A stretch of DNA of 51,371 nt from a virus. The position numbers were made by a program, and so were the translations under genes. Every line of letters starts with the position of its first letter. Position 1 is the stretch's first letter. This document shows positions 12,282 through 51,371 of this stretch, piece after piece. The notes beneath the pieces are model-generated. The model was not told the origin of the DNA and did no database searches. It worked only from the letters and a program-made list of their open reading frames with translations. The stretch covers positions 1 through 51,371 of IMG/VR virus record IMGVR_UViG_3300006749_000017. One strand, given 5' to 3'.

Positions 12282-12282
12282 G

Positions 12283-13764: not shown

Positions 13765-13766
13765 GT

Positions 13767-13949
13767 ATGGTGCATATGAGTTTGTTTAATTACTTCAAAC
13801 TTAATTTTGCCTTGATGCAGTATCATAAATATAGTTTGACAGAGATTGAAAATATGATGCCTTGGGAACGAGACATCTATGTGGGTCTTCTCCAACAACA
13901 TCTTGAAGAGGAAGAGTTAAAACGCAAGCAGCAAAAAGCGAATGCCTAG
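13767..13949 (+). CDS. 51: gp51-like hub assembly protein / frameshift extension of gp26
   Basis: 60 residues in the -1 frame relative to gp26. SLFNYFKLNFALMQYHKYSL then TEIENMMPWERDIYVGLL recalls the small protein often annotated as hub assembly catalyst gp51 in cyanophages, but is far shorter than T4 gp51. It may be made from the ATGs at 13767 or 13776, neither of which has a good ribosome-binding site, and/or as the C-terminal part of a gp26 frameshift product. It overlaps the next gene by 8 bases. The symbol is tentative. Confidence 0.7.
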   Translation: MVHMSLFNYFKLNFALMQYHKYSLTEIENMMPWERDIYVGLLQQHLEEEELKRKQQKANA

Positions 13950-26557: not shown

Positions 26558-26559
26558 AT

Positions 26560-27234: not shown

Positions 27235-27238
27235 TTAA

Positions 27239-28009: not shown

Positions 28010-28016
28010 CAAACTG

Positions 28017-28044
28017 TTGACTTCATGCTAAGGTATGATAGTAT
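28017..28044 (+). promoter_or_regulatory. Sigma70-type early promoter in the late region
   Basis: TTGACT (28017-28022), 16 bases, then TAGTAT (28039-28044), 13 bases before the ATG of a 60-residue gene. No late motif lies in this gap, so the gene probably has a different timing from its neighbours. Confidence 0.6.
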
Positions 28045-28057
28045 TCCTTAAAATTGT

Positions 28058-28240
28058 ATGGAAGACGAATATGTAACACGATGTGTGGTGGATACCGCAC
28101 AGAGAAAATTCTATCTTTACTCTAGTGAAGGAGAAAAAAGAGTTGTTGATTGTGATACTGTTGAACAATTCATGAGTGTGTTAAATCTTGTAAGAGATTC
28201 ATGTCCTGAAGATGTGTTATCGTATGCGGATCCCCTCTGA
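28058..28240 (+). CDS. Small cyanophage protein with its own early promoter
   Basis: 60 residues: EDEYVTRCVVDTAQRKFYLY, then SSEGEKRVVDCDTVEQFMSV. It has a beta-rich N-half and a helical C-half. I recall similar proteins in other cyanophages without function. It stands alone between structural genes, with a sigma70-type promoter in front and a hairpin (28249-28275) behind, so it is expressed independently of the late operon. It is a candidate early host-takeover factor, by context only. Confidence 0.72.
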   Translation: MEDEYVTRCVVDTAQRKFYLYSSEGEKRVVDCDTVEQFMSVLNLVRDSCPEDVLSYADPL

Positions 28241-28248
28241 GGGAAAAT

Positions 28249-28275
28249 CGACTTTTAGTTTCAAAAAAGTCGGAA
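28249..28275 (+). repeat. Hairpin downstream of the 60-residue gene
   Basis: CGACTTTT (about 28249-28256) pairs with AAAAGTCG, flanked by GGGA and TCCC that could extend the stem. The following sequence is A-rich, not T-rich, so it is not a typical plus-strand terminator; it may stabilise the mRNA end or be a weak bidirectional signal. Confidence 0.4.
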
Positions 28276-28328
28276 AAAAATCCCGCCAATTTTTTACGCA
28301 CGAAGGGTTTTGCATGGATTTGTTCAAT

Positions 28329-28336
28329 GATAAATA
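28329..28336 (+). promoter_or_regulatory. Late promoter motif GATAAATA
   Basis: GATAAATA, ending 30 bases before the ATG of the 1978-residue fibre gene at 28367. It restarts late transcription after the early-type insert. Confidence 0.6.
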
Positions 28337-28366
28337 ATCCATAACAAGAACTATAGTGCTAATAAG

Positions 28367-36432: not shown

Positions 36433-36439
36433 CTAAATA
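36433..36439 (+). promoter_or_regulatory. Late promoter motif CTAAATA
   Basis: CTAAATAACTAAAAC just after the adhesin stop; the motif ends 34 bases before the ATG at 36474. It carries the full extended ACTAAAA part. Confidence 0.65.
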
Positions 36440-36473
36440 ACTAAAACTATGCACGGGGGAGAGTGAACCCGAA

Positions 36474-37025
36474 ATGGCAGTAAATAAGAATTTTGTTGTC
36501 AAGAATGGACTAGAGGTTAACGATAACCTTTTAGTCGCAGACGTAAACAATCAAAGAGTAGGCATTGGAACTTCGGTTGCAAGCTACACCCTCCATGTAT
36601 TAGGTGGAATAGGAGTAACAGAGGCACAAGTCACTGGTATTGCTACTTTTCTTAGTGACGTTAATATCTTAGGCAACTTAAACGTTACTGGAGATATAAG
36701 TTACGATGAGGTTACAGGTAGAAACCTTAACATATCGGGTATTTCTACACTTAATAATTTAATTGTTACTGGAGTAGCAACAGTCGGTGTTGTCACTGGT
36801 GCAAGTGCTGCATATTTTGGAGATGGTTCTGGATTAACAGGATTAGCACCAGGATTAACAGCAGCAATTGGTATTCAGTCTGGTGGCACTGTAATTGGAA
36901 GTGGTATTACTTCTTTAAATCTGGTTGGAATAGGATTAACCTCTGATGTTGATGGCAATCAGGGGAATTTTTATCTTCCTCCACCAGGTGTATCGCTTGG
37001 TCTTGCAATCGCTCTTGGCGGTTAA
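36474..37025 (+). CDS. Short tail-fibre-like protein
   Basis: 183 residues. Fibre repeats: KNFVVKNGLEVNDNLLVAD, QRVGIGTSVASYTLHV, then NLNVTGDISYDEVTGRNLNI and a GSGLTGL turn; the end has LPPPGVSLGLAIALGG. GDISYDEVTG is a diverged version of the IGGTLTYEDVTN block found in four later genes. The ATG is preceded by a GGGGGAGAG site. A trimeric fibre segment is likely. Confidence 0.75.
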   Translation: MAVNKNFVVKNGLEVNDNLLVADVNNQRVGIGTSVASYTLHVLGGIGVTEAQVTGIATFLSDVNILGNLNVTGDISYDEVTGRNLNISGISTLNNLIVTGVATVGVVTGASAAYFGDGSGLTGLAPGLTAAIGIQSGGTVIGSGITSLNLVGIGLTSDVDGNQGNFYLPPPGVSLGLAIALGG

Positions 37026-37031
37026 TAAATA
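37025..37031 (+). promoter_or_regulatory. Late promoter motif ATAAATA
   Basis: AATAAATAAAA overlapping the upstream stop; ends 19 bases before the ATG at 37051. Confidence 0.55.
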
Positions 37032-37050
37032 AAATTAACACAGAAAAACA

Positions 37051-37590
37051 ATGGCAGAACAGTTTTCAAATAAATTAGCAAGAGCAGTCGGAGTTGTGAC
37101 CACAAGTTCCGCAGGTTCTATTGGTGCATTAGCCAACACAATTACTGGTATCTCAACAGGAGGTGTTGCTGTAGGTGATTTGGTTGACAATACCAACCAC
37201 ATTGCTGGAACTAAAGTAACTGTTGTTGGTGTTGGACAGGTTACTGTTGATCGTGCTTCAACTAATACAGCATCAGCAACAAGTCAAACAGTTAAATTTT
37301 TAACCCCAACTAATGTTTATAGTTCTCCTTCTGCTACGAAGAGTATTTTGATTGGTGGAACTTTTGCTAACACTACTAATAACCAAGTTAATTTAACAGT
37401 TGTTGTTAATGATAACAGTGCTTCAGTTGATGCATTATTAGCAAGCAAAATTCCTGTTCCCGCAGGTAGTTCTTTTGTTATTAGTGATGCTGGTAAAACA
37501 GTATTAGAAGGTGATGATAAAATTAAAGTATTTTGTGATACTAATGGTGGTATTGACGTAAACCTAAGCATTCTGACAGGAGTTAACTAA
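37051..37590 (+). CDS. Virion protein, fibre cluster
   Basis: 179 residues, Ser/Thr/Val-rich beta protein. The second half, LLASKIPVPAGSSFVISDAG then KTVLEGDDKIKVF, recalls a domain of small tail-associated proteins in marine phages. No catalytic motif. It overlaps the next gene by one base (TAATG), so both are made together. Confidence 0.7.
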   Translation: MAEQFSNKLARAVGVVTTSSAGSIGALANTITGISTGGVAVGDLVDNTNHIAGTKVTVVGVGQVTVDRASTNTASATSQTVKFLTPTNVYSSPSATKSILIGGTFANTTNNQVNLTVVVNDNSASVDALLASKIPVPAGSSFVISDAGKTVLEGDDKIKVFCDTNGGIDVNLSILTGVN

Positions 37591-38327
37591 TGGCAGACAG
37601 AAGCGGTTATATTGGAAGAGCACCTGGTGATTCGTCGGTAACGATTGCTAGGCAGCATTATAATCCTACAGGGGTTCAAACGAATTTTACGTTTAAATCT
37701 GGTTATACTGTTGGACTTATTGATGCTTATCTGAACGGTGTCAAGTTAATTGAAGGTAATGATTATACTGCTTCTGATGGTTCAACAGTTGGTCTTACAA
37801 CTGCTGCTATTTCATTAGATACTCTTGAGTTAGTTGCATATAAAGCATTTAATTTAGGATTTGTTAATTCTTCAGTTGCAGATTTTACCGTTGGAACTGA
37901 CTTAACGGTTAATGGTAATGCCACTATTACTGGCAATACTACCTTCAATGGAACTGTTACTGGTGCTACTGTAGGAGTTAGTTCTGCAGGAACAAGTATA
38001 GGAAATGCAAAGACACTAAACTTTGTAGGAACTGGTAATACCTTTGCAGTAGACGGAGATAGTGTTAATATTAGTATTGCTGGTGGTGGAGGAGGTGGAC
38101 TTGGAACTGCTCTTAGTGAAGTTAAGACAGAACCTGGTGCTCAGGTATTTACTACACCAAGAAATACTACTATATCAGCAGGAAGTTCACTCTTTATTGA
38201 TGTGAGTGCTGGTGATGGGGGCATTGCCTTCACAAAATTAGGTAGAATTCATGTTGCTGTTGGTGCCACCTTACATGTAGGGTCAGGAAGCACTTTGGCA
38301 ATGGATGTATTGAACTTATTCATCTAA
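37590..38327 (+). CDS. Tail-fibre protein with GGY-NG-DGS adapter domain (copy A)
   Basis: 245 residues. The N-terminal ~90 form a conserved phage fibre domain: NFTFKSGYTVGLIDAYLNGV, KLIEGNDYTASDGSTV. The middle has VGVSSAGTSIGNAKTLNFVG, GTGNTFAVDGDSVNISIAGG and a Gly run. It is paralogous to the gene at 45372, with the same domain order and near-identical central blocks; the C-termini differ, as expected for host-contact tips. Confidence 0.78.
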   Translation: MADRSGYIGRAPGDSSVTIARQHYNPTGVQTNFTFKSGYTVGLIDAYLNGVKLIEGNDYTASDGSTVGLTTAAISLDTLELVAYKAFNLGFVNSSVADFTVGTDLTVNGNATITGNTTFNGTVTGATVGVSSAGTSIGNAKTLNFVGTGNTFAVDGDSVNISIAGGGGGGLGTALSEVKTEPGAQVFTTPRNTTISAGSSLFIDVSAGDGGIAFTKLGRIHVAVGATLHVGSGSTLAMDVLNLFI

Positions 38328-38330
38328 ATA
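38324..38330 (+). promoter_or_regulatory. Late promoter motif CTAAATA
   Basis: CTAAATA overlapping the upstream stop codon, ending 22 bases before the ATG at 38353. Confidence 0.6.
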
Positions 38331-38352
38331 TAACACGGAGACTTAGAAGCAA

Positions 38353-39375
38353 ATGTCTGAACTTTGGGTAACAAACGTATACAACCAAGAAGGAGATGGT
38401 GCTCCTAATCTACCTAAAGGTGCTATTGTCACTGGTGTTGTAACTGCTACAAGTTTTACTGGTAGTGGTGCAAACCTTACGGGGGTGACTGCAACTGATG
38501 TAGGAACTCTGGGAAATCTTAACGTAACTGGAGTTGGAACTTTTGGTGGCAATGTAACGATTGGTGGGACATTAACATATGAAGACGTAACTAATATAGA
38601 CTCTGTTGGATTAATTACAGCAAGAAGTGGTATTAATATAACATCTGGTAGTATTAAAGGATATAATCAATTAGTTGCTCCCTATAGTGGGACAACCACA
38701 ACACTTACAGTTACAGTTGCATCTAAAGTTAATGGAGAGCACAGATATTTTGGAACAGGAAGTGCTTTAGGATATGTTGTAGATGGAACGCAATCACCTT
38801 ATATTACTTTAACACCAGGTAGAACTTACAAGTTTGATCAGGCAGATGGTAGTAATGCAAACCATCCAATAAAATTTTATCTAAATGCAGATAAAACAGG
38901 ACTATATGAGGGTGGTGTAACTTACAACGGAACTGCAGGTAATTCTGGAGCATATACCCAGATAGTTGTTAATGATTATACTCCTACGGTGCTGCACTAC
39001 CAATGCGTCAATCACGGCTATATGGGTAATGCGGTCAATACAAGTTCTAACAGTTCGATGTCTGCAGAGTCATCAACTGTCACAGCAATGGGTGCAAACT
39101 CTGTTGATTGTCGAATAGGAAATTACTTTACAAAGACTATATCAGGAGCAACAACATTTACATTCGATAATGTTCCAGCATCAGGAGTTGCTTTTGGATT
39201 TGTAATGGAATTGACATTGAATGGTTCCAATGCAGTAACATGGCCAGCAAGTGTTAAATGGCCAAAAGACACTGCACCAACAATTACAGATGGTAAGACT
39301 CAAATGTTTGTATTTGTGACAGATAATGGTGGAACACGATGGAGAGGTAGTTCACTTGTAGATTATACTAATTAA
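38353..39375 (+). CDS. Tail-fibre protein with inserted cupredoxin-like domain
   Basis: 340 residues. N-terminal fibre block (ATSFTGSGANLTGV, IGGTLTYEDVTNIDSVGLI). Residues about 110-235 form a cupredoxin-like domain: LTPGRTYKFDQADGSN, NHPIKF with His171, then LHYQCVNHGYMGN with Cys218, His221 and Met224, the four ligands of a type 1 copper site. The C-terminal ~100 (TKTISGATTFTFDNVP to SSLVDYTN) is the shared fibre tip, also in the gene at 42013, which lacks the cupredoxin. It is first of a duplicated fibre + LamG pair. Confidence 0.82.
   Translation: MSELWVTNVYNQEGDGAPNLPKGAIVTGVVTATSFTGSGANLTGVTATDVGTLGNLNVTGVGTFGGNVTIGGTLTYEDVTNIDSVGLITARSGINITSGSIKGYNQLVAPYSGTTTTLTVTVASKVNGEHRYFGTGSALGYVVDGTQSPYITLTPGRTYKFDQADGSNANHPIKFYLNADKTGLYEGGVTYNGTAGNSGAYTQIVVNDYTPTVLHYQCVNHGYMGNAVNTSSNSSMSAESSTVTAMGANSVDCRIGNYFTKTISGATTFTFDNVPASGVAFGFVMELTLNGSNAVTWPASVKWPKDTAPTITDGKTQMFVFVTDNGGTRWRGSSLVDYTN
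38560..38625 (+). repeat. 66-bp fibre module repeat, copy 1
   Basis: DNA encoding IGGTLTYEDVTNIDSVGLI plus TAR. It is nearly identical to 42268-42333, 46338-46403 and 51062-51127, in four different genes. Confidence 0.8.
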
Positions 39376-39380
39376 ATATT

Positions 39381-41981
39381 ATGTCTATAGCAAGAAAATT
39401 ATTAATGTCTTCTGGTGGAAAGAAAGATTCTACATTTGTTGACGACGTATTTTCAACTTATCTTTATAAGGGAACAAACGGTGCGAATACAGTAAATACT
39501 GGTCTTGATATGTCTGGGGAAGGTGGATTGCTTTGGCTTAAGGCTCGTAGCAATAGAAGTCATCAATGGTTTGATACTGAAAGGGGTGTTAATACACGTA
39601 TGCAATCAGACGGTGTAGGAGCATCAGTTGCTGATTCTGGTATGAATCAAACTTTTACTTCGACAGGTTTTACTTTTAATAATACTTACACAGATTTAAA
39701 CGACCATAACGTAAATTATACCTCTTGGAATTTCCGCAAGGCACCTGGATTTTTTGATATTGTTAAGTGGAATGGAGACGGTTCATCATCAAATAGACAA
39801 ATAGCTCATAATTTGGGCAGTATTCCTGGCATGATCATAATGAAAGCTTACACGCATCCAAGTGGCGTTGGAAATACTGATTGGCAAATTTATCATCGAG
39901 GACTAAATGGCGGTGTAAATCCAGAACAATATGCACTCATGTTCTCTACTGGTGCAGAAGGGAATCGGGATTGGTTTGGTGATACTGCCCCTACGGCTAC
40001 ACATTTCACGATAGGAAGTGGACAAGATCGTAACGGTACAGGTGGTCAATATGTAGCCTACGTATTTGCAGGAGGTGAAAGTACTGCTGCAACGGCAAAG
40101 AGTGTAAAATTTGATGGTAATGGTGATGATTTAACTATTAACAACAATACAGATATTCAACTCGGATCAACATCAGCGTGGACTGTTGAATTTTGGTTTA
40201 AAAGGACTGGATCATATCAAGATTATGATGTTATACTTGGTAAAGGTGATGGTACTGGTAGTTATGAATGGTTTGTTGAAGGATTTTCGGATGGATCTGT
40301 AGATTTCTTATGGAGTAGTAGTGGTGGGAATCTTCAGTCTGGTCGGTATGAAATGATTGACTATCAAACAACAGACATCTGGTATCATGTTGCAATTGTT
40401 AGAAATGGTACTAGTTTTAAAGTTTATATAAATGGTACTGAGACTTACTCAACAACAGCATTTAATATTTTTGCTGGAAATGGAAAGTTAAATATTGGTG
40501 GATATGCTGGTGCTAGTGGCCAAGATCCCGCAGTAGTTATAAGTAATTTAAGAATAGTAAAAGGAACAGCACTTTATACATCATCATTTAAACCACCAAC
40601 TGAACCATTAACGAACATAACGAATACTAAACTTTTATGTTGCAATAACTCATCAACTACAGGTTCAACCGTAACTACTGGAACGATTACTGCTAATGGT
40701 AATCCAACAGCAAGCACAGATAGTCCCTTCGATGACCCAGAGGGTTTCAAGTTTGGTGAAGGAGGAGACCAAAATATTATCAAGACTGGTAGTTATGTTG
40801 GATCAGGCTCCGCAGGTTTGGAAGTAAATGTCGGGTTTGAGCCGCAATGGATAATTTTTAAAAACGCTTCTGCTGCTTATAACTGGTATGTTTTGGATGT
40901 TATGAGGGGCATTGTTTCAAATGGTGATGAAGCAATATTAAGTGCTAACACAAATAGTGCAGAGTTTGACAGTAGTTATATTGATGTAACACCTACTGGA
41001 TTTAAGTTACAGACTAATCACGCTTTAGGAAATGGGAGTGGTAATACTTACGTCTACATGGCACTGAGAACACCTGATGGTTATGTAGGAAAACCAGCAG
41101 AGGCAGGTACGGATGTATTCGCTATGGATGTTGGTAGTAATAATTTCCCTGCATTTGATAGTAATTTCCCTGTTGATTTTGTTTTACAGAAAGCTCCAGA
41201 TGCTGCTGCAAATTGGTTAGTACCAAGTCGATTAACAGGATCAGCAAAATATCTTAAAACTAATACTACCGACGCTGAAGCAAGCTGGGATGTGTTTGAT
41301 TTTGATTCAAATGTAGGTTGGGGAAAAGCAAGTACTTGGGCTTCGGCTACGAATAATGCATGGATGTGGAAACGCCACGCTGGTTTTGATGTGGTGACTT
41401 ATAAAGGAACGCAAACGGTTCAGAATATAAGTCATTCAATGAATAAAGCTCCAGAAATGATGTGGATAAAAAATAGAGATAGTGGTGTTTACAACTGGAG
41501 TGTATTTCACTCAGGATTAGGAGATAACCGTTTCAAGCTGTACTTAAATACCACTCAAGATTATACAAATGATCAAGCTGCTTGGAACAATACAGCACCT
41601 ACTTCTACACATTTTACACTAGGAATAGACGCAACAGCTAATAAATCTGGTGACGATTACATAGCCATGCTCTTCGCCAGCGTTGACGGCATCAGTAAGG
41701 TTGGTAGTTATGACGGCACAGGTTCGACTCAAACTATAACAACAGGATTTAGTCCAAGATTTATAATTATAAAAAGGTCTAATTCTTCTGAAAACTGGTT
41801 AGTATTTGATACTACAAGAGGATGGGGATCAGGTAATGATGCATCTCTAAAATTAAATGCTAGTGATGCACAAGGTTCGTTCGATGTAGGTGCGCCTACT
41901 TCAACAGGATTTACACTAGTAAGTAATTACAACACTACAAACGCTTCGGGTGGTAAATACATATATTATGCTCATGCTTAA
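39381..41981 (+). CDS. LamG-lectin tail protein, copy 1
   Basis: 866 residues. The N-terminal VDDVFSTYLYKG and following region hold the first of about four units of the type FDIVKWNGDGS...IAHNLGSIPGMIIMKAY...W.IYHR (DUF7483-like). Residues about 239-430 are a LamG/concanavalin-like lectin domain (SVKFDGNGDDLTI, WTVEFWFKRTG, WYHVAIVRNGTSFKVYING, SNLRIVKGTALYTSSF). It is a paralogue of the gene at 42726 in full length and order. Such lectin domains bind sugars, so this is probably a host-surface-recognition protein. Confidence 0.8.
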   Translation: MSIARKLLMSSGGKKDSTFVDDVFSTYLYKGTNGANTVNTGLDMSGEGGLLWLKARSNRSHQWFDTERGVNTRMQSDGVGASVADSGMNQTFTSTGFTFNNTYTDLNDHNVNYTSWNFRKAPGFFDIVKWNGDGSSSNRQIAHNLGSIPGMIIMKAYTHPSGVGNTDWQIYHRGLNGGVNPEQYALMFSTGAEGNRDWFGDTAPTATHFTIGSGQDRNGTGGQYVAYVFAGGESTAATAKSVKFDGNGDDLTINNNTDIQLGSTSAWTVEFWFKRTGSYQDYDVILGKGDGTGSYEWFVEGFSDGSVDFLWSSSGGNLQSGRYEMIDYQTTDIWYHVAIVRNGTSFKVYINGTETYSTTAFNIFAGNGKLNIGGYAGASGQDPAVVISNLRIVKGTALYTSSFKPPTEPLTNITNTKLLCCNNSSTTGSTVTTGTITANGNPTASTDSPFDDPEGFKFGEGGDQNIIKTGSYVGSGSAGLEVNVGFEPQWIIFKNASAAYNWYVLDVMRGIVSNGDEAILSANTNSAEFDSSYIDVTPTGFKLQTNHALGNGSGNTYVYMALRTPDGYVGKPAEAGTDVFAMDVGSNNFPAFDSNFPVDFVLQKAPDAAANWLVPSRLTGSAKYLKTNTTDAEASWDVFDFDSNVGWGKASTWASATNNAWMWKRHAGFDVVTYKGTQTVQNISHSMNKAPEMMWIKNRDSGVYNWSVFHSGLGDNRFKLYLNTTQDYTNDQAAWNNTAPTSTHFTLGIDATANKSGDDYIAMLFASVDGISKVGSYDGTGSTQTITTGFSPRFIIIKRSNSSENWLVFDTTRGWGSGNDASLKLNASDAQGSFDVGAPTSTGFTLVSNYNTTNASGGKYIYYAHA
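40698..40784 (+). repeat. 87-bp near-identical repeat, copy 1 (LamG genes)
   Basis: Almost identical at DNA level to 44016-44102 in the paralogous gene, encoding GNPTASTDSPFDDPEGFKFG and the start of the next unit. It stands out from diverged flanks. Confidence 0.8.
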
Positions 41982-41985
41982 CCTA

Positions 41986-41992
41986 CTAAATA
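41986..41992 (+). promoter_or_regulatory. Late promoter motif CTAAATA
   Basis: ACTAAATAAATAAAAAG; CTAAATA ends 20 bases before the ATG at 42013. Confidence 0.6.
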
Positions 41993-42012
41993 AATAAAAA
42001 GATTCTAGAATA

Positions 42013-42720
42013 ATGTCAAGAATTAGAGCTGACAAATTAGTTAACAAAAATGCGTCTGGTGGTCCTGATTTTCCTCTAGGTGCTACCGTAACTGGTATTA
42101 TGACTGCCTCTGGTGGTTTTGCTGGTTCTGGTGCTAATCTTACTAATGTTCCAGCAACTAGTTTAACGGGAACTCCGAATATTACTGTAGGAACAGTTGG
42201 TGCAGGAAACGTTACATCTTCGGGAACAGTTAGTGCTGTTACTGGTAGTTTTAGTGGTAATGTAAGTATTGGTGGGACATTAACATATGATGACGTAACA
42301 AACATAGATTCAGTTGGACTTATAACTGCAAGAAAAGGTATAAACGTAACTGCTGGAGTATCGACATTTGCTGCAGCAACTCATCAAAATGCAGGAACAA
42401 AAGTATCTGGTCCTTATTCTGCTAATATAACAGCAATGGGTGCAAATGATGTTGATTGTTCTGCAGGTAATTACTTTACCAAAACAATATCAGGAGCAAC
42501 AACCTTTACATTCTCTAATGTTCCTACTGGTGTGGTTTATGCATTCAGTATGGAAGTAACATTGAATGGATCAAATGCAATCACATGGCCATCAAGTGTT
42601 AAATGGAATGCGGATACAGCACCAGCGTTAACTGATGGTAAGACTCAATTGTTTATGTTTTTAACTGATGATGGTGGAACTCGTTTTAGAGGTTCAGCAC
42701 TTGTAGATTACGTTAATTAA
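42013..42720 (+). CDS. Tail-fibre protein, paralogue without cupredoxin domain
   Basis: 235 residues. It has the same N-terminal block (GSGANLTNV, IGGTLTYDDVTNIDSVGLI) and C-terminal tip (TKTISGATTFTFSNVP to SALVDYVN) as the gene at 38353 but lacks the ~110-residue cupredoxin-like insert. It is followed 5 bases later by a LamG paralogue, repeating the gene pair. Probably a trimeric fibre subunit. Confidence 0.8.
   Translation: MSRIRADKLVNKNASGGPDFPLGATVTGIMTASGGFAGSGANLTNVPATSLTGTPNITVGTVGAGNVTSSGTVSAVTGSFSGNVSIGGTLTYDDVTNIDSVGLITARKGINVTAGVSTFAAATHQNAGTKVSGPYSANITAMGANDVDCSAGNYFTKTISGATTFTFSNVPTGVVYAFSMEVTLNGSNAITWPSSVKWNADTAPALTDGKTQLFMFLTDDGGTRFRGSALVDYVN
42268..42333 (+). repeat. 66-bp fibre module repeat, copy 2
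   Basis: Second copy of the 66-bp block, with a few base changes (GATGACGTAAC in place of GAAGACGTAAC). Confidence 0.8.
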
Positions 42721-42725
42721 AGATC

Positions 42726-45344
42726 ATGGATCCTATTACACAGTTTATGATGCAGGGTGCTGCTGGTGCAGCAGGTGATGCGACTTATGTTGACGATGTT
42801 TTTTCGACGTATCTTTACACAGGACAATCAACTACTAAAACTATTACCAATGGAATTGATAATTTAGGTGAAGGTGGAATGTTATGGGTTAAGAATAGGG
42901 ATAATGCAAGAGGTCATCAATTATATGACACAGAAAGATTAGCAAGTGGTTCAAATACAACTTCAGATTATTCTTTAAGCAGTGACTCTAATGGTGCTGC
43001 AAGGGATATGAGTCCTAATGGGATTGTTACTTGGAAAAACGATGGATGGTCTGTTCCTGGTGGTGATGGTGATATAAACCAAAATGGTTTTGGGGATTAT
43101 GCAAGTTGGAACTTCCGTAAGCAAAAAGGATTCTTTGATGTTGTTACCTACACAGGGAATGGTACGGCTGGTAGGACTGTAAGTCATTCGTTGGGTTGTG
43201 AACCTGGAATGATTATTATAAAGAATTTAGATAGTACTGAAGATTGGCGTGTATATCATCGTTCATTAGGTGGAACACACAATTTAGTATTAAACTCATC
43301 TGCTGCTAGTGCTGCTACTAGTTCAGTATTTAACCAGACTGATCCGACTGCAAGTGTCTTTACTGTAGGGACTTCCGACGCTACTAATAAAAATGGTGAT
43401 AATTTTGTAGCTTATGTTTTTGCAGGAGGTGCTTCAACTGCTGCGAATGCAAGGTCTGTTGAATTTGATGGATCGGGTGATTATTTAACTACAAATACAT
43501 CCAGTGATTACACATTGGGTACAGGTGATTTTACTTTAGAGTATTGGTATAAACCAGACACAGTTAATTATTCCACTTTCTTAGTTGATGCAAATACTGG
43601 AAGTGAAGTTTGGGCTACTTATTGTAATGTTAATGGGCAACATAAATACCGTGTTAATGGTACTGACGAAATAATTAGTACTACTCCATTAAGATATAAT
43701 CAATGGCATCACATCGCTATTGTTAGATCTTCTGGTACAACTAAGATGTATGTCAATGGTACTCAGGAAGGTGCTAGTATGTCTGACAGTACTAATTATA
43801 CCTTTACTTCAGTAGTTATTGGCAGGCGAGTTTCTGCTGGGGATCTTCAGTATGATGGAGAAATATCTAATCTTAGACTTGTAAAAGGAACAGCAGTTTA
43901 TACCTCATCATTTAGACCAACTTACGAACCATTAACGTCTATAAGTGGTACATCTCTTTTATGTTGTAATAATTCTTCCGTAACAGGAACAACAACAGGA
44001 ACAGTTACCTCAAGTGGTAATCCAACAGCAAGCACAGATAGTCCTTTCGATGACCCAGAGGGTTTCAAGTTTGGTGAGGAAGGAGACCAAAATATAATCA
44101 AGTGCGGTAGTCATAGTCATTCATCAACTAATCCAATTCGCATTTATACAGGATTTGAACCCCAATGGATAATGCTTAAGAACGCAACACAATCCAGCAA
44201 CTGGGCAATGTATGATGTTATGCGAGGTATTTTTGTAGGGTCTGATGGTCCTTCTTTAACTGCTGATACTAATACCGCAGAAAATGGAGTTCTAGGTCAA
44301 GGTCAACCCCTTACACCTCATGGAGATGGTTTTACTCTTAATTATGGACTCACTGCTGTAAATCCTGGTAATGGAAACACCGTAATTTATATTGCAATCC
44401 GAAAATCTGATGGTTATGTAGGAAAACCAGCAGAGGCAGGAACTAATGCATTCGCTATGGATACGGGTAATGGTAGTAGTTCTGGACCTTGTTTTGATAG
44501 TACTTTTGCTGTTGATTTTGCACTAAGAAAAATATACGGCAGTACTGATGATTGGTGGGCTGTAAATAGACTTACAGGTAAAAAATACTTAAAGACTAAT
44601 ACAACTAGTGCCGAATCTAATCATAATGATAACCCTATGGATTTTACTGATGGATGGGCTGCAGGATCTATAGGATCTGGAATGCAATCATGGATGTGGA
44701 AACGAGGTGCTGGTTTTGATGCGGTGGCATTCCAAGGGACTGCAACTGATCCTGGTCGAGATTATGCTCATTCATTAGGGAAAACACCAGAATTAAAATT
44801 TATAAAAAGAAGAAATTCCTCTACAGATTGGATGGGTACAGGAACGGTTGTTTCACAAGCAATGGCTGGAAATAATAATTCAATGGATTATTTCGTAAAA
44901 CTTAATTCAACAGATGCAGCAACAAATTCTAGTAATTATTGGACTGGTGGTAATGATAGTTCAACACATTTCACTGTTCGTCATGGTAACAGTGCTTTAG
45001 GTGGTAGTAATGATCCTTATTTGTGTTTACTGTTCGCCAGCGTTGAAGGCATCAGCAAGGTTGGTAGCTATAACGGTACAGGATCTGTTGGTCTTCAAAT
45101 AACGACTGGGTTTTCTCCTAGATTTCTTATATTAAAAAGAGCAAACGCTAGTGGTCCTTGGTATGTTCTGGACACAACAAGAGGATGGGCTGGAGGTAAT
45201 GATCAATATCTACTGTTGAACACTAGTGATGCACAATCTCCTTATGAATTTGGTGTTCCAAATGCCACTGGGTTCCAATTAGATATTACTGCTAGTCAAG
45301 TAAACGAATCAGGTGGAAAATACATATATTATGCTCATGCCTAA
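42726..45344 (+). CDS. LamG-lectin tail protein, copy 2
   Basis: 872 residues, paralogue of the gene at 39381. VDDVFSTYLYTG opens it, then FFDVVTYTGNG with HSLGCEPGMIIIKN, a LamG domain (about 241-425: SVEFDGSGDYLT, FTLEYWYKPD, WHHIAIVRSSGTTKMYVNG, SNLRLVKGTAVYTSSF) and three further DUF7483-like units (GFEPQWIMLK, HSLGKTPELKFIK, GFSPRFLILK). The LamG part is more diverged from copy 1 than the flanks, suggesting selection for different sugars. Confidence 0.8.
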   Translation: MDPITQFMMQGAAGAAGDATYVDDVFSTYLYTGQSTTKTITNGIDNLGEGGMLWVKNRDNARGHQLYDTERLASGSNTTSDYSLSSDSNGAARDMSPNGIVTWKNDGWSVPGGDGDINQNGFGDYASWNFRKQKGFFDVVTYTGNGTAGRTVSHSLGCEPGMIIIKNLDSTEDWRVYHRSLGGTHNLVLNSSAASAATSSVFNQTDPTASVFTVGTSDATNKNGDNFVAYVFAGGASTAANARSVEFDGSGDYLTTNTSSDYTLGTGDFTLEYWYKPDTVNYSTFLVDANTGSEVWATYCNVNGQHKYRVNGTDEIISTTPLRYNQWHHIAIVRSSGTTKMYVNGTQEGASMSDSTNYTFTSVVIGRRVSAGDLQYDGEISNLRLVKGTAVYTSSFRPTYEPLTSISGTSLLCCNNSSVTGTTTGTVTSSGNPTASTDSPFDDPEGFKFGEEGDQNIIKCGSHSHSSTNPIRIYTGFEPQWIMLKNATQSSNWAMYDVMRGIFVGSDGPSLTADTNTAENGVLGQGQPLTPHGDGFTLNYGLTAVNPGNGNTVIYIAIRKSDGYVGKPAEAGTNAFAMDTGNGSSSGPCFDSTFAVDFALRKIYGSTDDWWAVNRLTGKKYLKTNTTSAESNHNDNPMDFTDGWAAGSIGSGMQSWMWKRGAGFDAVAFQGTATDPGRDYAHSLGKTPELKFIKRRNSSTDWMGTGTVVSQAMAGNNNSMDYFVKLNSTDAATNSSNYWTGGNDSSTHFTVRHGNSALGGSNDPYLCLLFASVEGISKVGSYNGTGSVGLQITTGFSPRFLILKRANASGPWYVLDTTRGWAGGNDQYLLLNTSDAQSPYEFGVPNATGFQLDITASQVNESGGKYIYYAHA
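44016..44102 (+). repeat. 87-bp near-identical repeat, copy 2 (LamG genes)
   Basis: Matches 40698-40784 with only a few substitutions; located just after the LamG domain. Confidence 0.8.
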
Positions 45345-45348
45345 CCTA

Positions 45349-45355
45349 ATAAATA
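45349..45355 (+). promoter_or_regulatory. Late promoter motif ATAAATA
   Basis: AATAAATAACTAAAAAG; ATAAATA ends 16 bases before the ATG at 45372. Full extended form. Confidence 0.65.
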
Positions 45356-45371
45356 ACTAAAAAGTAACAAG

Positions 45372-46085
45372 ATGGGAATAGGAAATCCGATACGACTGAC
45401 AGGTAATGTTGCCTCAAAGGATATAACCGTAACTGCCACTGAAGGGCAGACCCAGTTTACTGTTACTGGTGGTTATGATATAAATCAACTTGCTGTATTT
45501 CGTAATGGTATAAGGTTAGTTGATGGGCAAGACTTTACTGCAAGAGATGGTTCACTCGTAACTTTATTATCTCCTGCTACTGCTGGTGATGCAGTTGCAT
45601 TTAGAATATTTGCTGACTTTAAAGTTGCTGATGCAATTCAGGGAGCAAAAACAAATCAAACTATTAACGGTAATTTAGTTGTTACTGGTAGTTTAGACGT
45701 TCAAACTGGTGATACAAAAACTGCATTTATTGGTGTTAGTTCTGCTGGCACAAATATAGGTGTTGCAAAGACATTAAACTTTATTGGTGCTGGTAATACA
45801 TTTGCTGTTACTGGTGATACTATTGAAGTTAGTATTGCTGGTGGAGGAGGCGGTGGAATAGGCACAGCAGTTAAAGATGCTAATGATAATGATACACCGT
45901 TTACCTATATTGATAGGTTTACTAGTGTGACATCTGACCTTGTTCTTGATACAACTACTGCAGGTCTTTCAACTTCATATGTGGTTTCTGTTGTTCCTAA
46001 TATAACCATTACTAATGGTATTGGAGTTACCGTTGGAACTGGTAAGACTTTGGTTATCGATGTACTTAAGATTGGAGATCTTTAA
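45372..46085 (+). CDS. Tail-fibre protein with GGY-NG-DGS adapter domain (copy B)
   Basis: 237 residues, paralogue of the gene at 37590: TQFTVTGGYDINQLAVFRNG, RLVDGQDFTARDGSLVTLL, then VSSAGTNIGVAKTLNFIG, GAGNTFAVTGDTIEVSIAGG and a Gly run. The C-terminal ~80 residues differ from copy A. The next gene starts directly after the stop. Confidence 0.78.
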   Translation: MGIGNPIRLTGNVASKDITVTATEGQTQFTVTGGYDINQLAVFRNGIRLVDGQDFTARDGSLVTLLSPATAGDAVAFRIFADFKVADAIQGAKTNQTINGNLVVTGSLDVQTGDTKTAFIGVSSAGTNIGVAKTLNFIGAGNTFAVTGDTIEVSIAGGGGGGIGTAVKDANDNDTPFTYIDRFTSVTSDLVLDTTTAGLSTSYVVSVVPNITITNGIGVTVGTGKTLVIDVLKIGDL

Positions 46086-47993
46086 ATGTCAACTTTAAGA
46101 GTAACTAATTTAAAAGGTGGCAGTGCTGGAAGTGCTCCCAATCTACCTGATGGTGCTGTTATAACAGGTGTAGCAACTGTTGGTGTTTTAAGTGCTACAA
46201 CATTTTATGGTTCTGGTGCAAACCTGACAGGAATTGATGCAACTGCACTAAAAGATTCTGGTGGCACTGTAAAAATACAAGCAAATTCAACTGGTGCTGT
46301 AGTAACTGGCATACTGACTGTTAGTGGTAATGTAAGTATTGGTGGAACATTAACATATGAAGACGTAACTAATATAGATTCGGTTGGTATTATTACTGCA
46401 AGAGATGGTCTTAAAGTAACTGGTGGTAATTTAAATGTAGGAACTGCGATTACTGCATATGGTTCTACTGGAATTGTAAGTGCTACTTCATATAGAGGCG
46501 ATGGTTCGCAATTAAGTGGTATAGAAGCTGCTCCTACTATTCAACTTGTAACATCAGAAAATTTAGTAGCAGGTGATACTGTTGTTGTAAAAACTAATGG
46601 TCAAGTTGAAAAGGTTGTAAAAAATGTAACACAAATAACTCCTGTAAATGGACAATCTGTTCAAATTAGTGGTAGTGCTAATGGAGATGAAGCTCAAGTT
46701 GCTTTAGATCCTGCTAATCCAACTAGAATTTATGAAACCTATTGTCACCAAAACGGTAATATTTATTCCAGAATAGGAACAATTACAGGAACTGAGGATC
46801 CTGATGCAAATGTAGGTTGGGTTATTATAAGCACAAATTTGTCTCCTATTTCATCTAACTCATATGAGAAATCAAAACTTTGTAATATAGGTTCTGGTAA
46901 ATTTCTTATTGCTTGTGGTGACCATCACGTTCGTGTTCGTGTAGTAACTGTTAATTATTCTGCAAACACTGTAGCAACTGGAACTGTTGTATCATTAAAT
47001 GGTGGTAATGATTGTCGTAATTATGATGTAGAATCTTACGGAACTGATAAAGCAGTTATATCTTATAGAAGTAATTATGATAGTAAAGTTTATGTTGTTG
47101 GAGTGAGTGTTAGTGGCACTACTGTCACATTAGGTACACCAGTTGAATTTGATGCTAGTACTAGTGTAGGTGATGTAAACATAAGAAGGGCAACTGGTAC
47201 TTCTAAATTTTTAACAACTTGGTATAAGGATGCTTCAGATGGTCTTTTGTGTAGAATGGGTGATTTTAATACTGGTACTAATGCAGTAAGTATAGTTGGA
47301 AATGAATTGACAATTGATTCTTCATTTGGAACAGCAATAGGTGTTATTAATGCATTAACTTATACTAAAGATAATAAGTGGATATCTGCATTCAAAGCAG
47401 TTAGTGGATATCATAAGGGTGCAGTTATTAGTTATGATGGAAGCAGCACCATTACAAGAGGTGCAATTCTTCAAATATCAGGCAACGATACATCACATAC
47501 GTGTTTAGTATATGATATTGATGGTGATAGAACTATAGATATGTTTGAAGATAGGGATACTGGTAGTGGTTCTTTATGGGCTACAGCATTAAGTGTTAGT
47601 GGTACTACTCTAACTGCATCTGCACTTGATGAAGTACAGTCAACTAATAGTTGTTTTATTGATAGAAGAGGTGCTGCTTATTCATCGTATTGGGGAGCAA
47701 CATATGGCGTATCAGAAATGGGAAGTTCTAATAATCAATATACGATCTTGGTTACATCATCAACTGTTACTACAAATAGTGATACTTTTGTAGGTTTTGT
47801 TGGTTCGTCTTTCTCTGCTTCTTCTACAGCAACAATTCAAGTTGTAGGTAACATAAATGCAAATCAATCTGGATTAACTCCTGGTTCAAAATATTATGTT
47901 CAGAAAGATGGAAGCATAGCGGATACTGCAGGAAATCCAAGCGTATATGCAGGAAGATCCCTCTCTGCAACCAGTCTATTAATTAAAGGTTAA
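46086..47993 (+). CDS. Tail-fibre protein with propeller-like repeats (635 residues)
   Basis: 635 residues. N-terminal fibre block (ATTFYGSGANLTGI, IGGTLTYEDVTNIDSVGII, SYRGDGSQLSGI). Residues about 185-560 are beta repeats of 45-60 residues with strands ending in VSVSGTTVTLGTPV and ISYDGSSTITRGAIL, like blades of a propeller. The C-terminal ~60 (TIQVVGNINANQSGLTPGSK, YYVQKDGSIADT, AGRSLSATSLLIKG) is shared with the 712-residue gene at 48571. It starts right after the previous gene and shares its transcript. Confidence 0.75.
   Translation: MSTLRVTNLKGGSAGSAPNLPDGAVITGVATVGVLSATTFYGSGANLTGIDATALKDSGGTVKIQANSTGAVVTGILTVSGNVSIGGTLTYEDVTNIDSVGIITARDGLKVTGGNLNVGTAITAYGSTGIVSATSYRGDGSQLSGIEAAPTIQLVTSENLVAGDTVVVKTNGQVEKVVKNVTQITPVNGQSVQISGSANGDEAQVALDPANPTRIYETYCHQNGNIYSRIGTITGTEDPDANVGWVIISTNLSPISSNSYEKSKLCNIGSGKFLIACGDHHVRVRVVTVNYSANTVATGTVVSLNGGNDCRNYDVESYGTDKAVISYRSNYDSKVYVVGVSVSGTTVTLGTPVEFDASTSVGDVNIRRATGTSKFLTTWYKDASDGLLCRMGDFNTGTNAVSIVGNELTIDSSFGTAIGVINALTYTKDNKWISAFKAVSGYHKGAVISYDGSSTITRGAILQISGNDTSHTCLVYDIDGDRTIDMFEDRDTGSGSLWATALSVSGTTLTASALDEVQSTNSCFIDRRGAAYSSYWGATYGVSEMGSSNNQYTILVTSSTVTTNSDTFVGFVGSSFSASSTATIQVVGNINANQSGLTPGSKYYVQKDGSIADTAGNPSVYAGRSLSATSLLIKG
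46338..46403 (+). repeat. 66-bp fibre module repeat, copy 3
   Basis: Third copy; differs from copy 4 at only a few positions. Confidence 0.8.
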
Positions 47994-48011
47994 TCTCCAA
48001 TCATCTACTTC

Positions 48012-48018
48012 ATAAATA
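48012..48018 (+). promoter_or_regulatory. Late promoter motif ATAAATA
   Basis: CATAAATA, ending 21 bases before the ATG at 48040. Confidence 0.55.
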
Positions 48019-48039
48019 TCCTTATCTGATTAAATTATT

Positions 48040-48504
48040 ATGTCTGACTTTAGAATACGAGAGACTGGAGAGGTTATAAGTGATAGTGAGTTTCGTTTGA
48101 GAAACAAGCACACATCTTTTCCACGAATTATTGATGAACCACTTCAAGAGGAGTTTGGAATTGATATGATTTTTGAAGGACCACAGAAACAAGGTCCACC
48201 ACCATATTCACATACTTATAGAGATGGTATAGAAGAAATAAATGGTAAGTGGTATACAAAATATAGTATTAGGCAACAAGATAAAGAAGAGATTGATGAA
48301 CAATACGCAGAAAATGTAAGAAATAGAAGAGATAATTTAATAAAAGAAAGTGATTGGAGAGCAGTATCAGACAGAAAGTTAGAACCAGAATGGAAGAAAT
48401 ATAGAAAGCAACTTCGTGATATAACAAAACAAAAGGGATTTCCTCATGATGTGGAGTGGCCAGTAGACCCTGATGGTAATGGTGGTGACTCTATTCATGG
48501 CTAA
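48040..48504 (+). CDS. Tail fibre assembly chaperone-like protein (Phage_tail_APC type)
   Basis: 154 residues. The C-terminal ~60, RDNLIKESDWRAVSDRKLEP then EWKKYRKQLRDITKQKGFPH and DVEWP, follow the pattern of the phage tail assembly chaperone family found next to fibre genes (D-W...YR..LRDI..Q.GFP..V.WP). The N-terminus (SDFRIRETGEVISDSEFR) is typical of these proteins. It has its own late motif in front. By context it should help a neighbouring fibre fold or attach. Confidence 0.78.
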   Translation: MSDFRIRETGEVISDSEFRLRNKHTSFPRIIDEPLQEEFGIDMIFEGPQKQGPPPYSHTYRDGIEEINGKWYTKYSIRQQDKEEIDEQYAENVRNRRDNLIKESDWRAVSDRKLEPEWKKYRKQLRDITKQKGFPHDVEWPVDPDGNGGDSIHG

Positions 48505-48507
48505 ATA
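48501..48507 (+). promoter_or_regulatory. Late promoter motif CTAAATA (distal)
   Basis: CTAAATAACTTG overlapping the stop codon at 48504. It is 63 bases before the ATG at 48571, with a second, closer motif at 48547. Confidence 0.45.
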
Positions 48508-48546
48508 ACTTGAGGAGTTTCCATATTGATTATCTTATATTATCCA

Positions 48547-48553
48547 ATAAATA
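48547..48553 (+). promoter_or_regulatory. Late promoter motif ATAAATA (proximal)
   Basis: AATAAATATCTAAAAG; ends 17 bases before the ATG at 48571. Confidence 0.6.
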
Positions 48554-48570
48554 TCTAAAAGTAGGCGAAG

Positions 48571-50709
48571 ATGTCACAGTTAAATGTCGATAACATAAGA
48601 AACCGAACTGGTTCTAACGGAGGACCAAACTTTCCGAGTGGCATTACGGTTGCTGTAGGACAGACTGCTTATATACATGGTAATTTACAAGTTGATGGAA
48701 CAGAAACAATTATTAATACAGAGACATTAAATGTTTCTGATAAAACTGTAGGTATTGGATCTACAACCAATGCTTCTAATACGACTGCTGATGGTGCAGG
48801 TATTGAAGTATTTGCAAGTTCTAGTCAGGTAGGTAATAATAAAACTTTAACATGGGGTAATACAGCAAATAGTTGGGAATTTGGTCCTAATGATGTTGGT
48901 CTTAAAGTAGGAACAGGTGTAACAATTAATTCATCTGGTGTTACTATAACTGGTGTTTTAACCGCTACAAGTTTTAAGGGAGATGGTTCACAATTAAGCG
49001 GTATTGATGCAACAGCAATTCAGACAGGTAATACAAGTGTTCAGACGGTAGATACTGGTTCTGATGGTCATGTCAAAATGACTACAGAAGGTGGAGAAAG
49101 AGTTCGTATAGGTCCAGCAGGTCAAATTGGTCTTGGTGGTGCTAATTATGGAACCGAAGGTCAGGTATTAACTTCTGCAGGATCTGGTGGTGCTCCTAGT
49201 TGGGCTGCTATTCCTGCAGGTGGAAACGTAATTAGTGGTATTGCATCTGGGGCAATTGCGTTTGATAAGTGTATGGCACTTGCTCATGATGGAAAAATAT
49301 TACAGGTTGGTCTTCTTGCTACACCAAAGGATCCAGCTGCCAATATAGGTAATGAAAAGCAATTTCAGAATAGTAATTCATATAATATGGAAGTATTATA
49401 TGAACCAGATGCTGATAGATTTTTAAACGTATTTTCTGCAAACAATCAATTAAGATATAATGTTTGTGGTTTCCAAGGTAATAATCCTGTAAATAGTAAT
49501 TCTGCAGTAGTAAGTAGTAGTTTTGGTAATCCAAATAGCAATGTCGGTACGGATAACATATCAGCATGTTATGATACTACTAACAATAAATGTTTCGTTG
49601 TTTTCCATGATAATACTTATAGTGATAGAGCAAGGTGTATTGTAGGAACAATGACTCCTGATGAGAGTAATCAGGAGGGTAGTATGGCATGGGGATCCCC
49701 AGTAGATATTACTACAGGTGGTGGAGATTATGTTTATTGTTGTTTTGATAGCACAAATAATAAAATTATAGTTACTTATCGTAATAGAAGCAATAATTAT
49801 CTTCAGGCTAGAGTAGGAGCGATTAGTGGTAATTCTATAACATTTGGTTCAGAACTTACAATTACCACTGACAATAGTAGAAATACTGCTTGTGTTCATG
49901 ATGTTAGTGTAAATAAAATTTTAATTACTTGGGAAAATGTGACACAATCTCAAAAAATGTATGGTGTAGTGGGAACAATTAGTGGCAATAGCATGACATT
50001 TGGCACAATACAAGACTTAAATGATGGTTCAACAGGACAGGATTTATATACCAGCATGGTTTATGATCCTGATGGTCAGCAAACACTTGCACTTTATAAA
50101 GGAAGTTCGTCATACCCACAAGCTAGGGTTTTTAAAATTAGTGGAACTACTATTACTGGATATACAAAAGCACAAGTTTATGGTGGAGCAAGCAGTCACT
50201 ATAATATAACTTATGATACGCAGGATAATAGAGCTATTGTATTTTACGAGGCACAATCAAACTCTAATGCTCCAAGAGTAGTTCCTATTACTATTAGCGG
50301 AACATCTCTTTCTGTTGGAACTTTTTTTGAACCAAGAACTGGTGATGGTCAATCTACTAATGGTGCTGTTGATAATAAAGGAAATGCTTTAGTATGTTAT
50401 CGAGCAAATGCAGGTCATATGCGTAGGGTATTGGTTTCTACCATAAGTGGTAACATAGCAAATGCTTATCAATACGTTGGTTTTGCTGATACTTCCTACA
50501 CAAATGGTCAAACTGTAACAATTAGAACTGTTGGTAATACATCAGATAATTTTAGTGGATTAACAACATCATCAGTATACTACGTGCAGGGTAATGGAAC
50601 AATAAACACGTCATGGGATAGCACATACTTTGCTTCTTTTGCAAGTAATACTCCAATAGCAGGTAGAGCAATAAATTCTACCACTTTACAAATCTTTGAA
50701 CCAAGGTGA
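48571..50709 (+). CDS. Tail-fibre protein with propeller-like repeats (712 residues)
   Basis: 712 residues. The N-terminal fibre part has YIHGNLQVDGTETIINTETL, NVSDKTVGIGST and SFKGDGSQLSGI. Residues about 270-640 hold about six 45-55-residue repeats of the form ACYDTTNNKCFVVFHDN...RCIVGTM, CCFDSTNNKIIVTYRNRSNN, VHDVSVNKILITWENV, with strands GTISGNSMTFGT between them: a probable beta-propeller. The C-terminal ~60 matches the gene at 46086. Two late motifs precede it. Probably a receptor-binding fibre. Confidence 0.78.
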   Translation: MSQLNVDNIRNRTGSNGGPNFPSGITVAVGQTAYIHGNLQVDGTETIINTETLNVSDKTVGIGSTTNASNTTADGAGIEVFASSSQVGNNKTLTWGNTANSWEFGPNDVGLKVGTGVTINSSGVTITGVLTATSFKGDGSQLSGIDATAIQTGNTSVQTVDTGSDGHVKMTTEGGERVRIGPAGQIGLGGANYGTEGQVLTSAGSGGAPSWAAIPAGGNVISGIASGAIAFDKCMALAHDGKILQVGLLATPKDPAANIGNEKQFQNSNSYNMEVLYEPDADRFLNVFSANNQLRYNVCGFQGNNPVNSNSAVVSSSFGNPNSNVGTDNISACYDTTNNKCFVVFHDNTYSDRARCIVGTMTPDESNQEGSMAWGSPVDITTGGGDYVYCCFDSTNNKIIVTYRNRSNNYLQARVGAISGNSITFGSELTITTDNSRNTACVHDVSVNKILITWENVTQSQKMYGVVGTISGNSMTFGTIQDLNDGSTGQDLYTSMVYDPDGQQTLALYKGSSSYPQARVFKISGTTITGYTKAQVYGGASSHYNITYDTQDNRAIVFYEAQSNSNAPRVVPITISGTSLSVGTFFEPRTGDGQSTNGAVDNKGNALVCYRANAGHMRRVLVSTISGNIANAYQYVGFADTSYTNGQTVTIRTVGNTSDNFSGLTTSSVYYVQGNGTINTSWDSTYFASFASNTPIAGRAINSTTLQIFEPR

Positions 50710-50715
50710 TAAATA
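50709..50715 (+). promoter_or_regulatory. Late promoter motif ATAAATA (distal)
   Basis: GATAAATAAC overlapping the upstream stop; 70 bases before the ATG at 50786. Confidence 0.45.
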
Positions 50716-50755
50716 ACAACACCTGAATTAAATTATCATGTTCCCACTTAATCCT

Positions 50756-50763
50756 TATAAATA
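50756..50763 (+). promoter_or_regulatory. Late promoter TATAAATA (proximal)
   Basis: Exact T4 late consensus TATAAATA followed by ACTAGAAAAG, ending 22 bases before the ATG at 50786. Confidence 0.72.
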
Positions 50764-50785
50764 ACTAGAAAAGTAACCAAATACC

Positions 50786-51371
50786 ATGTCTGATATTCGA
50801 GTAGACAATATTAAGAACGAAGCAGGGACAGGATCTCCAGGTTTCCCCTTTGGTGCGAATATCACGGGTGTTGCCACTGCTACGTCATTTAAAGGAAATA
50901 TAGTTGGTAATGTAACAGGTAATGTAACAGGTAATACATCAGGTTCCTCTGGATCATGTACTGGTAACGCAGCAACAGCAACAGTTGCAACAAATGCTCA
51001 AGGGTTAACAGGTAGTCCAAATATTACAGTAGGAACCATAACTGCTTCAGGTAGTGTAAGTATTGGTGGAACATTAACATATGAAGACGTAACTAATATA
51101 GATTCAGTTGGTATTATAACTGCTAGATCTGGAGTAGATTTTAAGGGAATACTTCGAGAGAAAGTAAAAGTGACTGCAGGAAAGTTAAGTGATAATACTA
51201 ATATTAACTTAGATGATGGAATGGTTCATTTCTTTACCACTCAAGAAACAGCAACTTCTGAACCTAATATTACATCAAGTGTAGGAATTAACACAGCAAT
51301 GGCAGTTGGTGATACAATAACTGTAAGTGTTATAACAACTGCTGCTGCTGGTGCATACTCTGCAAACTGGA
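50786..51371 (+). CDS. Tail-fibre protein, N-terminal part (cut by window end)
   Basis: 195 residues visible with no stop before the window ends. SDIRVDNIKNEAGTGSPGFP, then ATSFKGNIVGNVTGNVTGN, a fibre repeat, and IGGTLTYEDVTNIDSVGII, the shared module. The last ~60 residues (LSDNTNINLDDGMVHFFTTQ) start a new domain whose nature cannot be seen. It continues the fibre gene array to the right. Confidence 0.85.
   Translation, partial: MSDIRVDNIKNEAGTGSPGFPFGANITGVATATSFKGNIVGNVTGNVTGNTSGSSGSCTGNAATATVATNAQGLTGSPNITVGTITASGSVSIGGTLTYEDVTNIDSVGIITARSGVDFKGILREKVKVTAGKLSDNTNINLDDGMVHFFTTQETATSEPNITSSVGINTAMAVGDTITVSVITTAAAGAYSANW
51062..51127 (+). repeat. 66-bp fibre module repeat, copy 4
   Basis: Fourth copy of the 66-bp block, in the truncated gene at the window end. 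Confidence 0.8.

Follow-up and report, generated by a model that had tools for sequence, protein, structure and literature searches.

A 66-bp block conserved as protein in paralogous cyanophage fibre genes is one of several seams for mixing fibre parts

A 66-bp block repeated in four tail fibre genes of a viral contig is one seam among several for the mixing of fibre parts, since relatives with different fibre ends are joined at it. At the DNA level the block shows no special conservation. In the explanation that we regard as probable, a segment constrained as protein incidentally supplies the homology for in-frame exchange of fibre tips by ordinary phage recombination. The DNA analyzed, referred to in its full length of 51,371 bp as the window, is an IMG/VR virus record with T4-type structural genes followed by tail fibre genes. 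Its T4-type matches comprised a gp32-like single-strand binding protein, tail tube, tail tube cap, baseplate hub, and tail lysozyme; the closest named DNA relatives were cyanophages and marine single-cell viruses (74–77% identity for the longer matches, over short parts of the structural region).

All four copies of the block were in frame, in four separate ORFs on the plus strand (Table 1). The first-pass annotation had described four blocks of equal length that are nearly identical amid diverged DNA, and this was borne out: pairwise identity was 57–63 of 66 positions (86–95%) versus an ungapped flank identity of 0.37–0.51 in the 90 bp upstream and 0.31–0.48 downstream. The four copies agree in 54 of the 66 columns; the 12 variable columns were third codon positions in all but one case. 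A 32-base pattern of the block, allowing up to three mismatches, matched the window exactly four times, at the four copies, and gave no match in 100 shuffles; thus, no chance match to the block core is expected. The block forms the core of a looser island of approximately 134 nucleotides (38524–38657 and its equivalents) that is 63–78% identical to the first copy. The peptide said to be shared by the four genes exists as a common motif, with residues that differ slightly between copies (E/D at position 8, L/I at position 18). As for the placement of the block just before variable parts, the distal parts do differ, but the genes starting at 38353 and 42013 have common 3′ ends (84% identity over 95 nucleotides, 76% over 200 nucleotides), so that in these two genes the region behind the block cannot be called simply variable.

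Table 1. Positions in the window of the block copies, the genes carrying them and associated features
Feature	Positions	Strand	Remarks
Block copy 1 (IGGTLTYEDVTNIDSVGLITAR)	38560–38625	+	Codons 70–91 of fibre ORF 38353–39375
Block copy 2 (IGGTLTYDDVTNIDSVGLITAR)	42268–42333	+	From codon 86 of fibre ORF 42013–42720
Block copy 3 (IGGTLTYEDVTNIDSVGIITAR)	46338–46403	+	From codon 85 of fibre ORF 46086–47993
Block copy 4 (IGGTLTYEDVTNIDSVGIITAR)	51062–51127	+	From codon 93 of fibre ORF starting at 50786 and running off the window
Fibre gene with block	38353–39375	+	PHROG tail fibre families phrog_30742 and phrog_9017; no Pfam match
Fibre gene with block	42013–42720	+	Tip family as in 38353–39375
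Fibre-like gene with block	46086–47993	+	Distinct, long distal part; unmatched in PHROG at E 0.01
Fibre gene with block	50786–51371	+	Tip of another family; cut by window end
Shared tip, 3′ end of first fibre gene	39082–39383	+	Repeated at 42430–42728
Shared tip, 3′ end of second fibre gene	42430–42728	+	Other copy of 39082–39383
Patch divergent from contig L125	38523–38642	+	15 substitutions and a 21-bp indel; middle 41 bp (38569–38609) identical

No Pfam family was assigned to any of the four block-bearing proteins, and the PHROG names obtained for block-bearing genes went no further than 'tail fiber protein' and 'virion structural protein', some being unknown; neither database identified a gp37 or gp38 homologue. 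No PDB sequence match was obtained at E 1; an AlphaFold2 model of the protein encoded at 42013, built from 20 sequences, had a mean pLDDT of 56.6, with values below 50 for residues 93–141 and mostly below 60 around the block, and this low-pLDDT model was not used as evidence. The cluster contains a tandem two-gene unit (38353–41981 and 42013–45344), each consisting of a short fibre gene and a gene for a DUF7483/laminin-G-like protein; the DUF7483 partner genes have common patches at 73–89% identity. A small protein encoded at 48040–48504 matched tail-fibre assembly families (phrog_4912, E 3e-19) and is possibly a fibre chaperone within the cluster. In the translation of the cluster's first gene (36474–37025), a faint relative of the block (GDISYDEVTGRNLNISG) was spotted by eye. 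The four copies could be plain gene duplicates in which selection has kept the block, and their resemblance would then be uninformative on recombination here. The tandem unit, with its fibre genes sharing 3′ ends, agrees with this explanation. Against it, leaders and tips differ in the remaining two copies, and the closest relative among the matches listed differs in a patch at the block (see below), which makes it rather improbable.

A search of 50,697 phage records located the 22-residue motif 78 times, in 38 records that all belonged to Synechococcus, Prochlorococcus, cyanophage or marine single-cell viruses. It was also present in hundreds of IMG/VR fibre genes (viral contigs yielded at least 120 stretches in each of two scans and 30 in a third, narrower one). 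Being confined to fibres of cyanophages and marine viruses, with T4-type genes nearby, the motif places its carriers among the fibre genes of T4-like cyanophages (Kyanoviridae). Neither the peptide string GGTLTYEDVTN nor a publication on this motif was found in the open-access literature searched. In 314 motif copies from 228 of 238 loci, the motif was located between a leader and varied distal parts; for the 199 copies in complete ORFs, the median length was 188 residues for the part preceding it and 254 residues for the part following it. Single linkage grouped 281 pre-block segments into 65 families and 227 tips into 74 families, and 16 of the 29 multi-member pre-block families were joined to more than one tip family, as were 15 of 29 tip families to more than one pre-block family; these counts have to be taken as rough because repeat-driven linkage inflates the largest pre-block family (136 members). 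One tip family of 25 members (c296_L230, with the RN05-S gene at L230:22320, where it is annotated as 'chaperone of endosialidase') was joined to 15 pre-block families. The counts of junctions, families, exact runs, and orthologue divergence exclude the window itself (L001–L004), L106 (same contig as L125), L238 (Sf-CH8, a near copy of Sf-CH5), L244 (S-SSM6a, a near copy of S-SSM7), and all loci from L245 on (core genes and duplicates of other loci).

The level at which the block is conserved was determined in 38 orthologous pairs in which both block flanks were at least 90% identical. Nonsynonymous change per codon was 0.008 in the block, 0.047 upstream, and 0.025 downstream, while synonymous change was 0.096 in the block versus 0.076 upstream and 0.050 downstream; for about 28 independent pairs the synonymous values were 0.087, 0.076, and 0.049, respectively. 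Low nonsynonymous and undiminished synonymous change indicate that the block is constrained as protein and not as DNA. In agreement, codon identity between isolate groups and genera (30 of the 40 listed isolate places plus the four window copies) was 4643/8571 (0.54) in the block, similar to gp32 (0.53) and below gp23 (0.59). The first-pass annotation had proposed a DNA island of unusual conservation, with a synonymous divergence below that of its flanks; in the orthologues this divergence equals or exceeds that of the flanks, an outcome that the annotation itself had named as refuting, and the proposal is not supported. The position-specific codon preferences of 170 copies, once considered as a sign of global DNA conservation, were dropped as evidence because comparison of these isolate groups gave an equal codon identity for gp32 and gp23.

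The four window paralogues were the only set in which synonymous divergence was lower in the block than in its flanks. Codons for the same residue agreed in 56 of 63 cases in block codons 1–11, in 36 of 62 in codons 12–22, in 23 of 32 in the 12 codons before the block, in 6 of 17 in the 10 codons after it, and in 3 of 16 farther upstream, the random expectation being 0.39–0.47. The agreement above random indicates genuine DNA identity among the window paralogues over the first half of the block and the stretch immediately preceding it.

Junctions at the block, which the first-pass annotation had suggested seeking in related genomes and metagenomes, were found in both isolates (RN05-S/RB11-B) and contigs (L016, L195, and L159/L163). 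Four phages of Synechococcus MW02 share a gene from locus position 15872, with the block at 16001–16066. RN05-S and RB11-B were 99.4% identical over 16,064 aligned bp (positions 1–16063), ending 3 bp before the end of the block; past 16063 they were unrelated for approximately 850 bp inside the same gene, and homology was found again from 16919. S-B05 shares leader and block (15836–16083, 95%), followed by a third distal part, and S-B43 shares the distal part of RN05-S up to 16634 at 97.7%. RN05-S and RB11-B also diverge in another fibre gene, at +62, and over 151 bp the segment after the block in this second gene of RB11-B was 90.7% identical to the one after the block in the first gene of RN05-S and S-B43.

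Wrong flanks joined at a repeat during assembly could produce such junctions artificially, and many of the loci are indeed short-read metagenomic contigs, one of which (L150) ends beside the block. The clearest junctions, however, are located in complete isolate genomes, and exact runs common to block copies within one MW02 phage genome did not exceed 23 bp, which makes confusion between block copies in these isolates unlikely. The usual assembly k-mers are longer than 23 bp. We therefore consider an assembly artefact very unlikely. Over all genomes, exact runs between block copies of one genome were 8–25 bp for most pairs, 32 bp in two, and 51 bp in one; such runs are short for efficient recombination, which speaks against the explanation preferred below.

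Further junctions rest on metagenomic assemblies. L016, which was recognized by reading translations, matches L043 in 45–50 of 50 bp upstream and L035 in 44–50 of 50 bp downstream, and the change of parent falls within the block's first 50 bp. L195 was 99.0–99.9% identical to L152 and L081 over 1.4–2 kb downstream of −30 and unrelated to them upstream. The fibre genes of L159 (7466–8509) and L163 (3077–3916) are near-identical except that L163 lacks, in frame, 204 bp present in L159; this segment is bounded by two direct copies of a 22-bp run from the 3′ end of the block. A strict search for three-way recombinants gave three candidates; two of them, L081 and L152 (each with L150), were set aside, the L150 contig ending just after the block. 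A short repeat beside variable gene ends is also what a site-specific system acting at the block, e.g. an invertase or a diversity-generating retroelement, would present. Against such a system, no inverted copy was found on either strand of the window, all four copies being direct repeats, the junctions were scattered from −30 to beyond +83, and the variation consisted of whole segments replaced; judged from this layout of repeats and junctions, it is extremely improbable.

The preference of junctions for the block was evaluated by several counts. Within −400 to +700, 12 of 61 hard right ends were located at +47 to +83, whereas within −700 to +500 only 4 of 63 hard left ends were located at −30 to −8; some apparent clustering of right ends has to be expected because homology running through the block to its end pulls them there. 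Junction rates per base of exposure were determined in random sets of non-overlapping (independent) pairs and compared between the block and the rest of ±800 bp. The rate ratio was 2.2 at identity 90 and length 120 (median p 0.011), 3.4 at identity 95 and length 120 (median p 0.003), 2.4 at identity 95 and length 150 (median p 0.041), and 1.7 (1.68) at identity 90% and length 150, the last value not being significant (median p 0.10). The same test gave 2.6–3.0 for GDGSGLTG-like and 1.8–1.9 for TGVATF-like control motifs, which are partly dependent controls because some of them are close to blocks. Switch counts in fixed windows at 13 offsets revealed switching over a broad zone from −600 to +600 with no spike at 0; at offset 0, 284 copies gave 14 pairs that were the same upstream and unrelated downstream and 4 pairs of the opposite kind. 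The idea of the block as a unique hotspot was dropped, since two other repeated fibre motifs give a comparable junction excess. Of the proposal that the block is a recombination point for swapping fibre tips, the existence of junctions at the block stands, with a rate ratio of 1.7–3.4 whose significance depends on the setting (median p 0.003–0.10); the special status does not, as control motifs reach ratios of 1.8–3.0 and the block is neither DNA-conserved nor unique.

A conversion-like signal was observed in comparison with L125, the closest relative among the matches listed, which is 97.1% identical to window positions 24303–39474. Counted in 60-bp steps, the median number of substitutions between the two was 0; one divergent patch is centred on the first block copy (Table 1). 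Orthologues that differ where paralogues agree show the pattern that a short conversion tract would leave. No donor was found among the loci examined, the best other matches being 88–89% identical over 91–102 bp. Other divergent patches were found at 34443–34922, 33603–33782, 28743–28922, and 37863–37982, the last adjoining another repeat (37974–38125 and 45732–45883). Because larger patches are present in the gene at 34303, the patch at the block has to be regarded as one of several. A synonymous excess at the block (p < 0.01) was obtained for 4 of 38 orthologous pairs versus 4 of 418 control windows; the four pairs represent two independent sets (S-B05 versus RN05-S and RB11-B; L154 versus L086 and L090). 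The window/L125 pair itself reached no more than p 0.047 in this test, because much of its patch is located just outside the 22 codons.

These patches bear on an alternative in which the block is only a structural boundary between shaft and tip: illegitimate exchanges would occur anywhere, selection would keep those at the boundary, and DNA homology would be irrelevant. Conservation at the protein level, with variation almost confined to third positions, fits this alternative, as do the lowest nonsynonymous and unreduced synonymous change in the block, a codon identity between genera that equals that of core genes, and junctions at many other places. It is opposed by synonymous patches in near-identical orthologues, which have no protein consequence for selection to act on, by the 204-bp deletion between two exact 22-bp copies, and by the codon agreement of 56/63 in codons 1–11 of the window copies versus 0.47 at random. 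We consider it unlikely that the block is only such a boundary.

The preferred explanation of incidental homology starts from the 22 residues that the block encodes, close to the N terminus of the fibre protein, with a conserved leader on one side and a variable distal module on the other. Selection at the protein level would keep this segment nearly unchanged in many paralogous fibre genes, which would leave 20–50 bp of near-identical DNA across the genes of one genome and of co-infecting phages. T4-type homologous recombination (UvsX, UvsY, gp32) could then use the block and other repeated fibre motifs as in-frame seams. Crossing over at the block would replace the whole downstream part or delete the segment between two copies, and short conversion tracts would carry synonymous variants between block copies. 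As to the agent, homologues of gp32, UvsX, UvsY, gp46, and gp47 were reported in all cyanomyovirus genomes then known (PMC2984593). A RecA-family match was obtained in 13 of 14 isolates; S-B43 (MN018232.1) was the only one without, possibly owing to a gap or frame error in the record. We infer that UvsX-type recombination is the agent of exchange, and that exchange takes place between paralogues as well as between phages. Judged from position and family annotation, the exchanged distal parts are probably the host- or receptor-binding tips.

In the distal tail-fibre locus of T-even phages, adhesins are reportedly swapped by recombination between conserved motifs, as said to have been described by Tetart, Desplats and Krisch in 1998. 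From sequence comparison, the block system is best read as a variant of this motif-mediated adhesin swapping, which is already known in T-even phages. Both concern T4-superfamily phages with a conserved motif beside a variable host-recognition part, and recombinants that differ beyond the motif; here, too, a conserved motif was found beside a variable distal part, and natural relatives that are identical up to one side of it are unrelated beyond the other. In contrast to the T-even locus, one coding motif is present in several paralogous fibre genes per genome and in hundreds of marine contigs, the block-bearing proteins have no Pfam match, and any change of specificity is putative.

Motif-mediated swapping has also been proposed for E. 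coli phage tailspikes, where conserved DNA motifs around receptor-binding domains were suggested to be recombination hotspots (Pas et al. 2023, PMC10408124). These are conserved stretches beside exchanged receptor-binding domains as well, common to several phage genera; they flank the domain and are conserved as DNA above their surroundings, whereas the cyanophage block is located inside the gene and conserved only as protein, and its junctions could be located within single gene pairs. During laboratory evolution of cyanophage S-TIM4, 15 synonymous mutations arose in 120 bp of a YadA-domain fibre gene, and recombination was proposed since they matched sequence found elsewhere in that genome (Enav et al. 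2018, PMC6224464). With about 15 substitutions per 120 bp of a fibre gene, read as recombination, this patch resembles the one at the block, though in a different gene; by analogy, what is reported of it is the closest experimental support for a recombination mechanism. The tail spikes of Ackermannviridae, whose modules are reportedly swapped (PMC8432352), are alike in having several receptor-binding genes per genome with modules exchanged among paralogues, and unlike in belonging to another phage family and to other proteins.

New in the present case are one motif repeated over paralogous fibre genes of marine cyanophages, junctions located in isolates, and conservation at the protein level; the last is also a caution, since a repeat selected as protein can mimic a DNA recombination site. 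The fibre genes of ocean cyanophages are hypervariable, and the sites and means by which their parts are exchanged have been little resolved. A named seam with junctions located in isolates opens the way to direct measurement of exchange; it also serves to mark fibre modules in metagenomic data and to predict the parts that can be combined in frame. In a wider picture, to which we give rather less than an even chance, several in-phase protein motifs across paralogous fibres, the block included, would form a shuffling grid in marine T4-like cyanophages, with protein-level selection preserving sufficient DNA identity: continuous recombination of shafts and tips within and between genomes may generate combinatorial host-recognition diversity without a dedicated recombinase.
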